From the NCBI RefSeq assembly GCF_011762095.1, contig NZ_JAASQO010000002.1, positions 1 through 64,000 on the forward strand: 64,000 nucleotides of DNA, given 5' to 3'. The notes below the pieces were generated by a model. The model saw nothing but the letters and a program-made list of their open reading frames with translations, did no database searches and was not told the DNA's origin. This document shows, one piece after another, positions 8,282-59,513 of this stretch. Position 1 is the first letter of the stretch; every line of letters begins with the position of its first letter. Source of the stretch: Parvibaculum indicum (GTDB lineage Bacteria; Pseudomonadota; Alphaproteobacteria; Parvibaculales; Parvibaculaceae). A program made the position numbers and the translations under genes.

Positions 8282-8295
8282 AGGAAATGGCCCCA

Positions 8296-8399
8296 CCCTT
8301 CGAGACGGGCCTGACGGCCCTCCTCAGGGTGAGGAGCAAATTCAGAACCAAACCCTCATCCTGAGGAGCGGCGAAGCCGCGTCTCGAAGGATGCAGGCC
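8296..8399. repeat. palindromic repeat, CTTCGAGACGG family (copy R1)
   Basis: About 104 bp. Outer arms CCTTCGAGAC and GTCTCGAAGG pair. Inside lie a left hairpin (GGGCC-tgac-GGCCC), the box CCTCAGGGTGAGG, a spacer of about 20 nt, the box CCTCATCCTGAGG and a right hairpin (GCGGC-gaa-GCCGC). It occupies the gap between two convergent genes. Other copies: 19324-19436, 19739-19848, 47073-47181 and 59339-59453. Confidence 0.9.
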
Positions 8400-8430
8400 T
8401 GTGCCACCCCACCCGGCACTTCGTCCCGAC

Positions 8431-14685: not shown

Positions 14686-15258
14686 ATGCGGGTTTGTATG
14701 CTCTCCAGTTGAAAGACGGCAACGCCAATCGCACGTCGCGACGAGGTCACCAGCCTGACCGCGCATCGACGGATCGAAGGAGGCCGGTTTGAAAGATTTG
14801 CACGGCCCCGCGGAGGAGATTTTCGTATCTGGGTGCGGGTCGATTCCGAAACCGGCCTCTATTTCCGTGTCTGAAGCGCAGAATAACGGTCTTCTCTCGA
14901 CCTCCGGCAAGGCCGCCTCCTCGCCCGCGACCCGGGCGCGCGAGTTGTGCGTGACACTGGATCCGGTTTCCATTTCCGGAGATCAGGGTTTTACGCCCTA
15001 TTGGAACGCGCGCTGCGCGGAGAGCCAATCCATGTGGTGGCTGCCACATCAGGTCGGATCACGCGGTCAGGGGTCACGCTCATCGGCCACATCTTCGAAC
15101 TTTCAGGAGGCCGCATCGAACTTCTGGAAGAAAACGATCGTGCCGAGCCGGTCGACGTCAAATATCTCGTTGTGCCTATCATTTGCTTCTGCAACTTCTT
15201 GCACGGCAAGAGGGCAAGTCAAAGGCACGAGAAAGATCCGGGTCTACCCTCGGGGTGA
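14686..15258 (+). pseudogene. tnpA: IS607-type serine recombinase tnpA, inactivated by stop codons
   Basis: One frame reads through an IS607 TnpA-like sequence: a HTH-like stretch ending RPRGGDFRIWV (about 14800-14832), then LYFRV-stop-SAE-stop-RSSLDLRQ, then RDTGSGFHFRRSGF and the resolvase core to 15258. In serine recombinases the core reads Y-x-R-V-S; here the TGA at 14872-14874 takes the position of that catalytic serine. A second stop (TAA, 14884-14886) replaces what is normally a glutamine in the SxxQ context, and a third (TGA, 14710-14712) lies near the 5' end. The gene therefore cannot make an active transposase. Its 3' end overlaps the start region of tnpB by about 90 bp, as in many IS607 elements. 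The 5' boundary is uncertain. Confidence 0.8.
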
Positions 15259-16348
15259 GAGCTTCTTTTTTGCGCTGATCCGTCAGCAAAGACGGGCCTA
15301 CAACCTTGCCATCGGGTGCTTCATCGAGGCCGACAAGGGGTTTGTCGACTACAACCACCCGGATCTTCGCAAGATCGAGCTGCGCCGAACCATCCGGGAA
15401 TTCGTTGCGGCTGAATGCGCAGAACGAGATGAGGCTTTCGTATCGGCATGGTGCGACGAAGCTGTTCTCGCCGCATTCAGAACCCGCGAGGCCGTTATCG
15501 GCAAGCGAAAAAATGGCGAATCTGCCGGCTACGCATTTCGGAGCCTCAAGGACCCCCGTCAGCGCTTCTACATCCAGAAGCTCTCCGCCGGGTTCGTCGC
15601 CAAACAGCTCTCTCTTTCCGAGGGCTTGCCTCCGGAGGCTTTCGGCAAACTCACGACCATCGTTTTTGAGCGGGGCCAGTGGTTCATCTGCGCTCAAAAG
15701 CACATCACCACGATCGGACAAGACGAAATCCAAGCCAGGTCGATCGTGGCCATCGACCCCGGTGTGCGGTGCTTTGCCACCGCATACTCGATGAACCAGA
15801 CCACCTCCTATGGAGAAGACTTCTACGCATCCCGTGTATTTCCCTTGCTGCTCCAGATCGACAAGCTGATCGGTCAGCGAGCAAGAGCAAAACACGATCA
15901 GTGGAAACGGCACTATCAGAAGAAGATCGACCGCCTGGTCCTCCGGATCCGAAACCTGGTCGACGACCTGCATCGTCGTGTGGCTTATGATCTCGTCCAG
16001 AGGTTCGATATCATCTTGCTGCCGCGCTTCGAGACGAAGCAGATGTCCTTGAGGCTGGAGCGCAAGATCCGAACGAAGACAGTTCGGTCGATGCTGGGTT
16101 TCAGCCATTACCGCTTCAGGCAACACCTTGCATGGATGTGCCGCAAATATGGCAAGCGGCTAATCATCGGCAACGAGGCCTATACCAGCAAGACCCGGTC
16201 ATGGGACGGGAGCGTGGTTCAAAACCTCGGCGGCGCGAAAACCATCACGGATGGGAAAATATACGTCGACCGGGACATTAATGGGGCGCGGGGCTTCATG
16301 CTGCGCGCTCTCTATGGCAACTCAGGCCATTCTCAGGCGACTGCGTAA
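15170..16348 (+). CDS. tnpB: TnpB, Fanzor-like RNA-guided nuclease of an IS607-type element
   Basis: About 392 residues if started at the TTG at 15170; the recognisable domain begins with TRKIRVYP near 15215. All RuvC residues are present: D196 in VAIDPGVRCF, E288 in LLPRFETKQM and D369 in DRDINGAR. The segments YAFRSLKDPRQ and MLGFSHYRFRQHL are those of the IS607 TnpB branch closest to eukaryotic Fanzors. The usual four-cysteine zinc finger between E288 and D369 is absent: YTSKTRSWDG and NLGGAKTITDGK keep the scaffold but have no Cys pair. TnpB proteins cut DNA guided by an omegaRNA made from the 3' end of the gene and the element's right end. The start is uncertain because the frame is open further up (to 14789) but without homology. 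The partner tnpA is dead. Confidence 0.85.
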   Translation: MCLSFASATSCTARGQVKGTRKIRVYPRGESFFFALIRQQRRAYNLAIGCFIEADKGFVDYNHPDLRKIELRRTIREFVAAECAERDEAFVSAWCDEAVLAAFRTREAVIGKRKNGESAGYAFRSLKDPRQRFYIQKLSAGFVAKQLSLSEGLPPEAFGKLTTIVFERGQWFICAQKHITTIGQDEIQARSIVAIDPGVRCFATAYSMNQTTSYGEDFYASRVFPLLLQIDKLIGQRARAKHDQWKRHYQKKIDRLVLRIRNLVDDLHRRVAYDLVQRFDIILLPRFETKQMSLRLERKIRTKTVRSMLGFSHYRFRQHLAWMCRKYGKRLIIGNEAYTSKTRSWDGSVVQNLGGAKTITDGKIYVDRDINGARGFMLRALYGNSGHSQATA

Positions 16349-18437: not shown

Positions 18438-19070
18438 ATGGCGACCAATCTTCCCAACCTGCTGACATATTTCCGCATCCTTCTGGTGCCCCTCGTGGTG
18501 ATCGCCCTGTATCTGGAAGAGGATGCGGGCAACTGGACGGCGCTGGCCCTGTTTGCGATGGCAGGCATTACCGACTGGCTGGACGGTTACCTTGCCCGCG
18601 CCTGGAACCAGACCTCCAATCTGGGCCGGATGCTCGATCCCATCGCCGACAAGCTGCTCGTCGCCGTGGTGCTGCTGGCGCTCACATGGCAAGGCACGAT
18701 TGCCGGCTATTCGCTCTGGGCGGCGATCATCATCCTGTGCCGGGAAATCCTGGTTTCGGGGCTGCGCGAATATCTGGCGGGCCTGCGCGTCAGCGTGCCG
18801 GTGACGCAGTTGGCAAAATGGAAAACCGCGATCCAGATGGTCGCCCTGGCCTTCCTGCTGCTGGGCCCGGCGGGCGACCGCATCGTGCCGGGCATTACCG
18901 AATTGGGGCTGACGCTCCTCTGGGCCGCGGCGATCCTGACCCTTTATACGGGCTATGACTATTTCCGCGCCGGGCTACGGCATATCGACGATACGCGCCC
19001 GCCGGAACGCCCCGCCGGCGCTCCCGCGACCCCAGGCGGGAGCGCGGCCAATGGAGACGCCGCGCCATGA
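18438..19070 (+). CDS. pgsA: CDP-diacylglycerol-glycerol-3-phosphate 3-phosphatidyltransferase
   Basis: A 210-residue membrane enzyme making phosphatidylglycerophosphate, the first committed step of phosphatidylglycerol synthesis. The CDP-alcohol phosphatidyltransferase signature is clear: DGYLAR, then G and two aspartates in GRMLDPIADK (about residues 40-65). Four or more hydrophobic helices follow (for instance LLVAVVLLALTW and IQMVALAFLLLG). The start at 18438 (MATNLPNLLTYFRI) fits the family; the frame is open upstream but inside uvrC. uvrC-pgsA-moaD is a familiar alphaproteobacterial gene order. Its stop overlaps the moaD ATG. Confidence 0.95.
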   Translation: MATNLPNLLTYFRILLVPLVVIALYLEEDAGNWTALALFAMAGITDWLDGYLARAWNQTSNLGRMLDPIADKLLVAVVLLALTWQGTIAGYSLWAAIIILCREILVSGLREYLAGLRVSVPVTQLAKWKTAIQMVALAFLLLGPAGDRIVPGITELGLTLLWAAAILTLYTGYDYFRAGLRHIDDTRPPERPAGAPATPGGSAANGDAAP

Positions 19071-19318
19071 AACTTCTCTACTTCGCCTGGGTAAAACAGA
19101 AGACCGGCAAGGCGGAGGAAGACGTCACGCTGCCGGCCGGGATCGCAGATGTAACCGGCCTCATAGACTGGCTGCGCCGGCGCGACGAAGGCTATGAAGC
19201 CGCGTTCGAAGACCTGAAGGTCATACGCTGCGCGATCGATCAGGAACACGCCGATCTCGATGCCTCGATCGCAGGCGCGCAGGAAGTGGCCTTCTTCCCG
19301 CCGGTGACGGGCGGATAG
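19067..19318 (+). CDS. moaD: molybdopterin synthase small subunit (MoaD)
   Basis: An 83-residue ubiquitin-fold protein ending in the required Gly-Gly (PPVTGG), whose C-terminal thiocarboxylate supplies sulfur to form molybdopterin. It overlaps pgsA by 4 bp. Its partner moaE normally follows directly, but here a repeat-flanked GIY-YIG gene lies between (about 550 bp). Confidence 0.95.
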   Translation: MKLLYFAWVKQKTGKAEEDVTLPAGIADVTGLIDWLRRRDEGYEAAFEDLKVIRCAIDQEHADLDASIAGAQEVAFFPPVTGG

Positions 19319-19323
19319 TTGAC

Positions 19324-19436
19324 AGGCCTCGTCCTTAGAGACGGCCCTTCGGGCCTCCTCAGGATGAGGCGCAATGTCAGAACCAAATCCTCACCCTGAG
19401 GAGGATGCGCAGCATCCGTCTCGAAGGGCGAGGCCA
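19324..19436. repeat. palindromic repeat, CTTCGAGACGG family (copy R2)
   Basis: About 113 bp beginning 5 bp after the moaD stop. The left arm has CTTAGAGACGG in place of CTTCGAGACGG. Left hairpin GGCCC-ttc-GGGCC, boxes CCTCAGGATGAGG and CCTCACCCTGAGG, right hairpin GGATGC-gca-GCATCC, right arm GTCTCGAAGG. It forms the left flank of the GIY-YIG gene; the AGGGAG that likely serves as its ribosome-binding site is just outside the repeat. Confidence 0.9.
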
Positions 19437-19449
19437 GGGAGCCTGCCAA

Positions 19450-19788
19450 GTGAATGCTTTCGTCTATATTCTTCGCTGCGATGACGGAAGCTACTATGTC
19501 GGCTCTGCGCGCGGATCGCTTGAAAGACGAATCCTCGAACACAATTCAGGCGCCTATCGCAGCTACACGTTCAATCGAAGACCGGTAACCCTTGCCTTTT
19601 CGGAGAGCTTTGAACGAATTACCGACGCTGTCGCCGCAGAGAGAAAACTGAAGGGCTGGAGCCGCGCCAAGAAAGAAGCCCTTATCGCCGGCGATTTCGG
19701 GCAATTGAAGGATTTATCGAAATCGCGGCGCACACCTCGGCCTCGTCCTTCGAGACGGCCCTGCGGGCCTCCTCAGGATGAGGCGTAA
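19450..19788 (+). CDS. small GIY-YIG nuclease (COG2827-like) flanked by palindromic repeats
   Basis: A 112-residue single-domain URI/GIY-YIG protein. FVYILRCDDGSYYVG holds the two tyrosine motifs, SLERRILEH the catalytic arginine and AVAAERKLKGWSR the glutamate. The end of the fold is RAKKEALIAGDF. The GTG at 19450 has AGGGAG upstream; an ATG at 19405 is inside repeat R2 and is rejected. The last 16 residues (RRPCGPPQDEA at the end) and the stop codon come from repeat R3, so the protein tail is repeat-encoded. No specific function is established for this family; DNA cleavage at structured or repeated DNA is plausible. The gene and its two flanking repeats lie between moaD and moaE. Confidence 0.85.
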   Translation: MNAFVYILRCDDGSYYVGSARGSLERRILEHNSGAYRSYTFNRRPVTLAFSESFERITDAVAAERKLKGWSRAKKEALIAGDFGQLKDLSKSRRTPRPRPSRRPCGPPQDEA

Positions 19789-19848
19789 GTCAGAACTGAT
19801 CCCTCACCCTGAGGAGGATGCGCAGCATCCGTCTCGAAGGGCGAGGCC
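19739..19848. repeat. palindromic repeat, CTTCGAGACGG family (copy R3)
   Basis: About 110 bp; same orientation and near-identical to R2 (left hairpin loop tgc rather than ttc, right hairpin GGATGC-gca-GCATCC). It overlaps the last 50 nt of the GIY-YIG gene and ends 18 bp before moaE. Confidence 0.9.
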
Positions 19849-19866: not shown

Positions 19867-20313
19867 ATGATCCGCGTCCAGACAGAGGATTTCGACATCG
19901 GCGCCGAAGTGGCCGCCCTCTCGAAAGACCGCCACGATATCGGCGCGGTCGTCACCTTTTCCGGCACGGTGCGCGACAAGACCGGCGACCTCGTCGCGCT
20001 GGAACTCGAACACTATCCCGGCATGACGGAGAAGGAACTCACGCGCATCGAAGCCGAAGCGCAGGCACGCTGGCCGCTGGAGGCGAGCCTCGTCGTGCAT
20101 CGCGTCGGACGCCTTCTGCCCGGCGAGAATATCGTGCTCGTCGTCACCGCCTCCGCCCATCGGCAGGCCGCCTTCGAGGCGGCGGAGTTCCTGATGGACT
20201 ATCTGAAGACCCGCGCCCCCTTCTGGAAACGCGAGGAAACGGCAGAAGGCGGCGACTGGGTGGATGCGCGCGACAGCGACGACACAGCGGCGGCGCGCTG
20301 GACAAAAAAATAG
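19867..20313 (+). CDS. moaE: molybdopterin synthase large subunit (MoaE)
   Basis: A 148-residue protein of the MoaE family, which with two MoaD chains converts cyclic pyranopterin monophosphate to molybdopterin. Landmarks are GAVVTFSGTVRDK near residue 37, LELEHYPGMTEKEL, the HRVGRLLPGE strand and KTRAPFWKRE near residue 113 with the active lysines. It follows repeat R3 with AAGG before the ATG. Transcription from the pgsA-moaD side would have to read through two hairpin-rich repeats. Its last codons are the A-run that is the T-run of the opposing ilvE terminator. Confidence 0.95.
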   Translation: MIRVQTEDFDIGAEVAALSKDRHDIGAVVTFSGTVRDKTGDLVALELEHYPGMTEKELTRIEAEAQARWPLEASLVVHRVGRLLPGENIVLVVTASAHRQAAFEAAEFLMDYLKTRAPFWKREETAEGGDWVDARDSDDTAAARWTKK

Positions 20314-37205: not shown

Positions 37206-37296
37206 CTGTCATCCCGGCATTCATTGCCGGGATCCACTCGCTTATCCACTTGCCGCAAGGCCAATGGGTCCCGGGAACAAGTCCCGGGACGACACC
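37206..37296. repeat. palindromic intergenic repeat, TGTCATCCCGG family (copy T2)
   Basis: Starts CTGTCATCCCGGCA and ends GTCCCGGGACGACACC, with two smaller palindromes inside (CCCGGCattcattGCCGGG and TCCCGGGaacaagTCCCGGGA). It lies between the hydrolase gene and ohrR. Confidence 0.75.
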
Positions 37297-47024: not shown

Positions 47025-47220
47025 GGTGTCATCCCGGGCTTCCTTTAGTACGAAAAGGGATTGGGGCGCAGAGGCCGCATCCTTCGAGACGGCCCTTCGG
47101 GCCTCCTCAGGATGAGGAACCATTTCAGACGTCAATCCTCACCCTGAGGAGCGGCGAAGCCGCGTCTCGAAGGGCGAGGCCGGGTGCTTACTGGATCCCC
47201 ACACAACCCGGGATGACACC
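47025..47220. repeat. palindromic repeat, TGTCATCCCGG family (copy T3), interrupted by copy R4
   Basis: The outer arms GGTGTCATCCCGGG (47025-47038) and CCCGGGATGACACC (47207-47220) are perfect 14-bp inverted repeats. The interior contains a complete CTTCGAGACGG-family element (47073-47181), so one repeat family sits inside another. Confidence 0.85.
47073..47181. repeat. palindromic repeat, CTTCGAGACGG family (copy R4)
   Basis: Left hairpin GGCCC-ttc-GGGCC, boxes CCTCAGGATGAGG and CCTCACCCTGAGG, right hairpin GCGGC-gaa-GCCGC (as in R1), arms CCTTCGAGAC/GTCTCGAAGG. Nested within T3 between hemF and hemN. Confidence 0.9.
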
Positions 47221-47229
47221 TAGAAGATA

Positions 47230-47310
47230 CGTCATTGCGAGCAAAGCGAAGCAATCCAGCGCTCAAGGCACAGGTTGGATTGCTTCGTCGCTTCGCTCCT
47301 CGCAATGACG
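47230..47310. repeat. palindromic repeat of a third family (ATTGCGAG type)
   Basis: CGTCATTGCGAGC at the left pairs with CTCGCAATGACG at the right, and inner AAGCGAAGCAATCCA pairs with TGGATTGCTTCGTCGCTT with small interruptions. It directly follows T3 and ends 7 bp before the hemN stop. Only one copy in the window. Confidence 0.8.
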
Positions 47311-59338: not shown

Positions 59339-59453
59339 GGCCTCGATCCTTCGAGACGGGCCTTGCGGCCCTCCTCAGGATGAGGATTTCATGTGGTAAT
59401 TTGTTCCTCATCCTGAGGAGGACGCATCGCGTCCGTCTCGAAGGATGCAGGCC
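59339..59453. repeat. palindromic repeat, CTTCGAGACGG family (copy R5)
   Basis: Left hairpin GGGCC-ttgc-GGCCC, boxes CCTCAGGATGAGG and CCTCATCCTGAGG, right hairpin GGACGC-atc-GCGTCC, arms CCTTCGAGAC/GTCTCGAAGG. Lies between the MoxR operon and the zinc operon; it begins 5 bp after the stop codon. Confidence 0.9.
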
Positions 59454-59513
59454 AATTAACGCCTTCCCCCTCGACGCCCCTTGCCCCGGCGCCCGATCCG
59501 GCCTAACGTCCGA

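Follow-up and report, generated by a model that had tools for sequence, protein, structure and literature searches.

A small GIY-YIG nuclease gene between palindromic repeats at a moaD-moaE junction: a candidate RAYT-like partnership

Known repeat systems and the moaD-moaE cassette

In the available portions of the sources, most REPs are assigned either to a GTAG group linked to RAYT or to a CGTC super-family (PMC3733652), and a RAYT/IS200-type transposase is proposed as the mover of the GTAG repeats (PMC3733652, PMC2817692). The same portions of the first source, a 2013 survey, place CGTC repeats in all alphaproteobacterial orders, where they predominate, and describe them as mostly HH pairs with outside tags (PMC3733652). 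According to the survey, transposase genes do not accompany these repeats and a dedicated transposase is apparently missing; their mobiliser is left open (PMC3733652). GIY-YIG is never mentioned in the available text of this survey, and its available main text contains no match to two strings of the type of repeat R described below (PMC3733652). A 2006 survey of GIY-YIG nucleases recorded, in its available portions, no GIY-YIG homing endonucleases in Alphaproteobacteria, and the string "palindrom" was not found there (PMC1564403); nor was GIY-YIG found in the available text of PMC12306157. Among the matches listed in a search of the open-licence PMC literature, with preprints outside its scope, none was found that joined GIY-YIG to REPs.

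The arrangement described here resembles the RAYT/REPtron/REPIN systems in that a nuclease gene is flanked by its own palindrome type, gene-less inverted pairs are dispersed, and several systems occur within one genome. It differs in its enzyme, which is a GIY-YIG protein rather than an HUH/Y1 tyrosine transposase, and in its printed flanks, which are mostly CGTC/TGTC or CTTCGA...CTCAGG palindromes rather than GTAG. In the 64-kb window, that is, the whole stretch of DNA analysed, moaD stops at 19318 and the first position of moaE is 19867, and the interval consists of the repeat R2, one small GIY-YIG gene and the repeat R3 (Table 1); the sequence-only reading had described moaD and moaE as split in exactly this manner, and its coordinates and gene order matched on re-reading.

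Table 1. Positions of the genes and repeats discussed, numbered within the 64-kb window
Feature	Position	Strand	Basis
R1, repeat pair without GIY-YIG gene	8289..8400		repeat comparison
moaD	19067..19318	+	reading frame, comparison with relatives
R2, palindromic repeat, inverted arms 19325-19369 and 19389-19435	19325..19435		repeat comparison; each arm a hairpin by folding
GIY-YIG nuclease gene, 112 aa, clade C; 3' end overlaps R3	19450..19788	+	Pfam, residue conservation, model
R3, palindromic repeat, 93% identical to R2	19739..19848		repeat comparison, folding
moaE	19867..20313	+	reading frame, MoaE search
TGTC-tagged repeat pair, outward tags, gene-less	37207..37294		CGTC-REP finder
TGTC(ATCCCGGG) repeat pair, R4 in spacer; sister G015 has TGTC pair without R4	47027..47218		comparison with G015
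R4, gene-less, nested in spacer of TGTC-tagged pair	47072..47184		repeat comparison, comparison with G015
CGTC-ATTGCGAG repeat pair; G015 has a different family, CGTCATG(G/C)CCCG, here	47230..47310		comparison with G015
R5, repeat pair without GIY-YIG gene	59339..59454		repeat comparison

The 112-aa product corresponds to a GIY-YIG domain (Pfam PF01541, E 2.2e-15), and Pfam found no second domain in it; NCBIfam assigned no name to any of the four proteins queried. Translation likely begins at the GTG at 19450, which has an AGGGAG immediately 5' of it, and the stop codon (19786-19788) falls within R3, so that the final codons of the gene consist of repeat. The predicted structure had a pLDDT of 81, and the closest solved relatives, by sequence as well as by predicted fold, were UPF0213/YhbQ structures (PDB 1zg2, 1ywl). 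The next best fold matches were Slx1 chains, which were weak (E about 0.02) and carry branched-DNA activity in the entry title.

R2 and R3 lie in the same orientation and are about 92-93% identical, ranking second of 55 pairings (11 repeat pairs compared; median identity 82%), and the remaining copies of R in the window show 77-83% identity to R2. Five copies occur within the window, and 53 half-units match the pattern genome-wide. Every copy is a pair of inverted arms with the arm sequence CCTTCGAGACG...CTCCTCAGG.TGAGG, and neither a CCA tail nor an outer CGTC tag was seen on these arms, which distinguishes R from the CGTC REPs. Folded as a single hairpin, R3 reached -45.1 kcal/mol (z -9.6), a value that 0 of 200 shuffles equalled or bettered. 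A known RNA family was rejected as the identity of these elements, Rfam giving no match at gathering scores across the window and the weak matches to R3 lying far below them.

Relatives of the host provided a view of the same junction without the cassette. When 61 genomes were searched for MoaE, 49 had a match; 30 loci were taken from these, 29 of them from relatives (25 from the genus, one from the family and three from the class). As had been predicted from the sequence, moaD and moaE occur in the relatives without the cassette: a GIY-YIG gene between the two was absent in all 29 loci, and the aligned gene ends were no more than 27 nt apart in 27 of them. The nearest relative, G015 (MoaE 95% identical), reads moaD-stop-CCCC-ATG. 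At the same junction G003 carries a gene-less CGTC(ATTGCGAG) repeat pair, and G007 (L037) a third palindrome kind, of the CTCCACCTCCCCC type. The relatives lacking the cassette, together with the palindromes in G003 and G007, indicate that the cassette was recently inserted and that this junction repeatedly took up palindromes. Turnover was also evident at R4, where G015 has the TGTC pair without R4, adjoined by a repeat family differing from that of our genome. Both the moaD-moaE and the R4 junctions are too diverged from G015 for a target-site duplication to be read.

Repeat flanks across GIY-YIG clades

A Pfam search of the genome returned GIY-YIG domains at nine places, namely UvrC and eight stand-alone genes, seven of which sit between two repeat copies, with at least four repeat types represented. 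The flanks are R at L002, CGTC/TGTC palindromes with CCCGG-type stems at L001, L005, L006 and L008, CGTC-ATTGCGAG palindromes at L007 and a 71-nt direct repeat at L003; L004, presumably YhbQ-type, is the sole unflanked gene. A single repeat common to all GIY-YIG genes was ruled out, R being found at one of the eight genes and the others carrying other repeats. Adjoining the intact cassette of L006, positions 1837-2004 hold in succession a repeat, a gene start, a gene end and a repeat, apparently an internally deleted GIY-YIG cassette, and internal deletion of this kind may be a route to the gene-less form, leaving an intermediate between the two. A relative of L008 in G015 (L125) carries an in-frame stop, suggesting cassette decay.

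Stand-alone GIY-YIG genes and their flanks, taken from the listed matches in 61 genomes, were subjected to a flank test, in which about 300 nt of left flank was scored against the right flank for a shared repeat, direct or inverted, at a local score of at least 40; L131:572 (a duplicate of L052) and L079 (flank too short) were left out. A shared repeat was detected at 68 of 117 GIY-YIG genes versus 3 of 205 controls, and one of these positives was itself a GIY-YIG gene. With clades defined by a tree of 138 domains (137 testable for flanks), sharing amounted to 65/81 in clade A, 0/34 in clade B, 4/5 in clade C, 4/15 in clade D and 0/2 in the others, and the difference between clades A and B gave a Fisher p of 3e-17 when related genomes were treated as independent. 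Clade B, which we take to be YhbQ-type, is separate from clade C in the domain tree; the UPF0213/YhbQ proteins are the nearest solved relatives of the window nuclease in sequence and fold, but the clade B genes of these genomes have no shared flanking repeats.

Sixteen of the 81 clade A loci fell under the flank threshold, and 73 of 82 were positive when CGTC-REPs on both sides were included. Since the strict CGTC-REP finder did not detect the ATTGCGAG repeats, the shared-repeat test served as the main count. A CGTC/TGTC tag, a short stem with a loop, a CCA tail and HH pairing characterise most clade A flanks, which therefore fit the definition of CGTC REPs in the available text of Di Nocera 2013 (PMC3733652). 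In 45 of 52 cases the tags of both flanks face outward, and CGTC-REP density was 2.79/kb less than 200 nt from the genes versus 0.10/kb more than 400 nt away. Four clade D genes (L003, L042, L044, L140) are accompanied by very different direct repeats, of the GGCTACGCGTGGCGCAGCCAC type in L042 and L044; clade D and its direct repeats possibly constitute a third partnership.

Five clade C proteins used as queries recovered at least 557 relatives, and the 80 best-matching loci were kept. Nearly all of these are titled alphaproteobacteria, and the named relatives suggest that the host is likewise an alphaproteobacterium rather than a gammaproteobacterium. Two of the 80 were excluded from the flank test for short flanks; among the 78 testable loci, 60 shared a flanking repeat, versus 2 of 226 controls, and 18 fell under the threshold. 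The earlier idea that repeats are linked to nuclease clades gained support here, since these other loci were mostly flanked by the same palindrome type. One of four repeat subtypes, a (CTTCGAGACG...CTCCTCAGG), b (CTTCGAGGC...CACCTCAGG), c and d, could be typed in 73 of the 80 loci, and the left and right subtypes agreed in 45 of the 46 loci with both flanks typed. Subtype was clustered on the nuclease tree, with 18 changes versus a shuffled mean of 36.8 (0 of 200 shuffles as low), a contrast inflated by near relatives. Within Bradyrhizobium, type a alone was present at seven loci from one nuclease subclade, no two of them syntenic, and type b alone at eight loci that belong to a different subclade and form six syntenic groups. 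The core residues were almost invariant across the 80 proteins (Y 79/80, Y 80/80, G 80/80, R 80/80, E 80/80), and an in-frame stop was present in 4 of the 80 translations, close to the 3' end in two.

Beyond these sets, the clade A profile was matched at 1e-10 in 59 of 200 phylum genomes, with other clades among the weaker matches. A breadth sample of 50 loci (the best per genome and 20 further strong matches), with our own L270 and the already counted L297 and L314 excluded, shared flanking repeats at 23 of the 29 loci from other alphaproteobacteria and at 12 of the 18 from outside that class, in a set that had no control genes. Of 31 plasmid records that matched, four were chosen, those of Azospirillum lipoferum 4B, Novosphingobium aromaticivorans, Sinorhizobium meliloti and Rhizobium sp. 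CIAT894, and all four had CGTC palindromes on both sides. The first three of these species, which carry such cassettes, are named in the available text of the CGTC-REP survey (PMC3733652). In A. lipoferum 4B (L339), the cassette splits sufB from sufC, a second instance in which two genes of one pathway are parted. For clade A, a phage origin was rejected, a query from this clade giving no match at E 1e-15 in phage records.

Spread as a unit, gene-less pairs and copy number

Clade A cassettes were compared at non-syntenic places with at least 75% identity (77 pairs, 40 loci). Similarity stopped at the outer repeat ends, with a median offset of 0 nt on both sides, and its end lay within 10 nt of the repeat end in 57/77 pairs on the left and 56/77 on the right. 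In clade C, 1001 of 1041 pairs were alike in the gene or cassette only, a cut-off-based count in which distant pairs could mask synteny. Purifying selection acts on the clade A nuclease, whose dN/dS had a median of 0.06 and no value of 1 or above among those of 51 pairs that had a finite dS, several of these dS values being near saturation.

The gene-less pairs share the ends of the cassettes. In nine chosen ATGGCCCG pairs, the cassette's ends were retained and a short spacer replaced the gene, and at L257 a second repeat pair lay inside the spacer of such a pair. Conversely, head-out pairs spaced 200-600 nt, among the matches listed, contained a GIY-YIG gene in 8 of 8 cases. In possessing gene-less derivatives with the same ends as an autonomous form, these elements are comparable to MITE/IS pairs; unlike those, they involve no DDE transposase.

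Repeat copies were counted in 27 genus genomes, with cassette copies removed by hand and related genomes treated as independent. The ATGGCCCG repeats had a median of 19 with versus 7 without the cognate nuclease subclade (p 0.0007), and the CCCCCGGG repeats 3 versus 0 (p 0.0008), the subclade sets being hand-drawn and, for these two families, taken from an earlier tree after the counts were visible. Restricting the comparison to genomes at least 90% complete and keeping the cassette copies gave p 0.008 and 0.0008, respectively. For a third repeat family, predicted before its search, the figures were 32.5 versus 8 (p 0.019; 0.033 minus cassette copies). Non-cognate controls gave p 0.69, 0.34 and 0.52, and in one case 0.022. 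Genomes scored as lacking a subclade in these comparisons may hide a member, since only the listed matches were taken, minus some that were UvrC-like or weak.

Repeat R itself followed a less simple pattern. Its units numbered 53 in our own genome (G000), 1 in the sister G015, 47 in G004 and 16 in G003, with fewer in seven others, and clade C proteins were found in G000, G028, G047 and G060 only. As no clade C nuclease was found in the R-rich G004 or G003, R can evidently be abundant without it; one reading is that the nuclease was lost after the repeats had spread. The earlier suggestion that repeat copy number depends on the nuclease therefore stood in part: for R, the contrast with G015 (53 versus 1) agreed with it, whereas G004 and G003 did not, and a simple copy-number link for R was not upheld; the three other families agreed.

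A proposed partnership and its rivals

We consider it probable that the palindromic repeats of the cassette form a mobile unit with its own nuclease gene, a partnership like that of RAYT and built on a GIY-YIG nuclease. The small enzyme would recognise palindromes of its own type, probably on hairpins extruded from single-stranded or supercoiled DNA, and would bind and nick or cut them, and host repair would help to copy the repeat pair into new intergenic places; the enzyme would thus be the cause of the spread. A structure-specific nuclease with extruded palindromes as its substrate would fit the model. Catalysis by GIY-YIG enzymes is hydrolytic and passes through no covalent bond between protein and DNA, and insertion would consequently need another activity. 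The autonomous form would be the pair whose spacer contains the gene; pairs lacking it, which in some families number dozens per genome, would be the non-autonomous form, comparable to REPINs in their relation to RAYTs. Each nuclease clade would serve its own repeat type, with clade A acting on CGTC/TGTC-tagged REPs and clade C on CTTCGA...CTCAGG palindromes. The notion of a RAYT-like system on another nuclease fold, first raised for the moaD-moaE cassette, is supported in part by these data, and independently by clade A and its CGTC REPs.

The chances are about even that the consequences extend further, to a distinct class of prokaryotic mobile DNA: GIY-YIG transposable elements across Pseudomonadota, with clade-specific nucleases driving their own palindromes, which would include the CGTC REPs, and with gene-less REP pairs as miniature elements.

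The strongest rival, though unlikely, is a homing parasite, in which the nuclease cuts REP pairs, repair copies its gene into their spacers and something else spreads the repeats. GIY-YIG proteins are classic homing nucleases, with which the enzyme shares its catalytic domain and possibly a selfish spread; a cassette has the form of a repeat pair whose spacer contains a gene, and the hydrolytic chemistry would be suitable. Against this, Y1_Tnp, the only alternative mover sought, was found in 0 of 26 genus relatives, copy numbers track the cognate nuclease, and the R2-gene-R3 block is located where the sister is repeat-free. The window protein differs from GIY-YIG homing endonucleases in comprising 112 aa and one Pfam domain with no C-terminal DNA-binding modules, and its setting is intergenic among dispersed palindromes rather than an insertion in an intron or target gene.

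A caretaker role, in which the nuclease trims or resolves repeat hairpins for genome stability and its placement between repeats eases local regulation, appears improbable. Slx1 is a eukaryotic repair enzyme with the partner Slx4, and we know of no repeats connected with it; the weakly matched Slx1-like fold speaks for such a role, and purifying selection does too. A caretaker would nevertheless need neither a between-repeat position at non-syntenic sites nor a subtype match, and the YhbQ-type relatives are unflanked (0/34).

Still less credible is movement of the repeats by a RAYT or IS200-type transposase, with the GIY-YIG gene as a passenger, the route to which the proposal for GTAG REPs in the available text of PMC3733652 and PMC2817692 would lend precedent. 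One Y1_Tnp gene is present in our own genome, and such genes occur in 7 of 24 wider-class genomes; however, none was found in the 26 genus or 10 family relatives, and at 0 of 12 Y1_Tnp places (our own included, L330 excluded) was a repeat shared between the flanks at a score of 40, the highest score being 39. RAYT is accordingly disfavoured as the mover. Chance has a negligible probability: repeats are numerous in this genome and small genes are often near dense repeats, but the controls (3/205 and 2/226) and the same-fold YhbQ-type genes (0/34 in the same genome set) refute it.

If the proposed partnership of palindrome and nuclease holds, the GIY-YIG fold would drive a large share of bacterial intergenic repeats, a role for which, to our knowledge, it is not known, and repeat families would become assignable to enzymes by clade. 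The CGTC REPs gain a concrete and cheaply testable candidate enzyme, and the same kind of partnership recurs at a second repeat type. Elsewhere in the window, a TnpB-like ORF (15200-16348, +) lies immediately 5' of uvrC; OrfB_IS605 stayed under its cut-off in this ORF, and a Cas12f1-like TNB domain was matched at E 7e-9.
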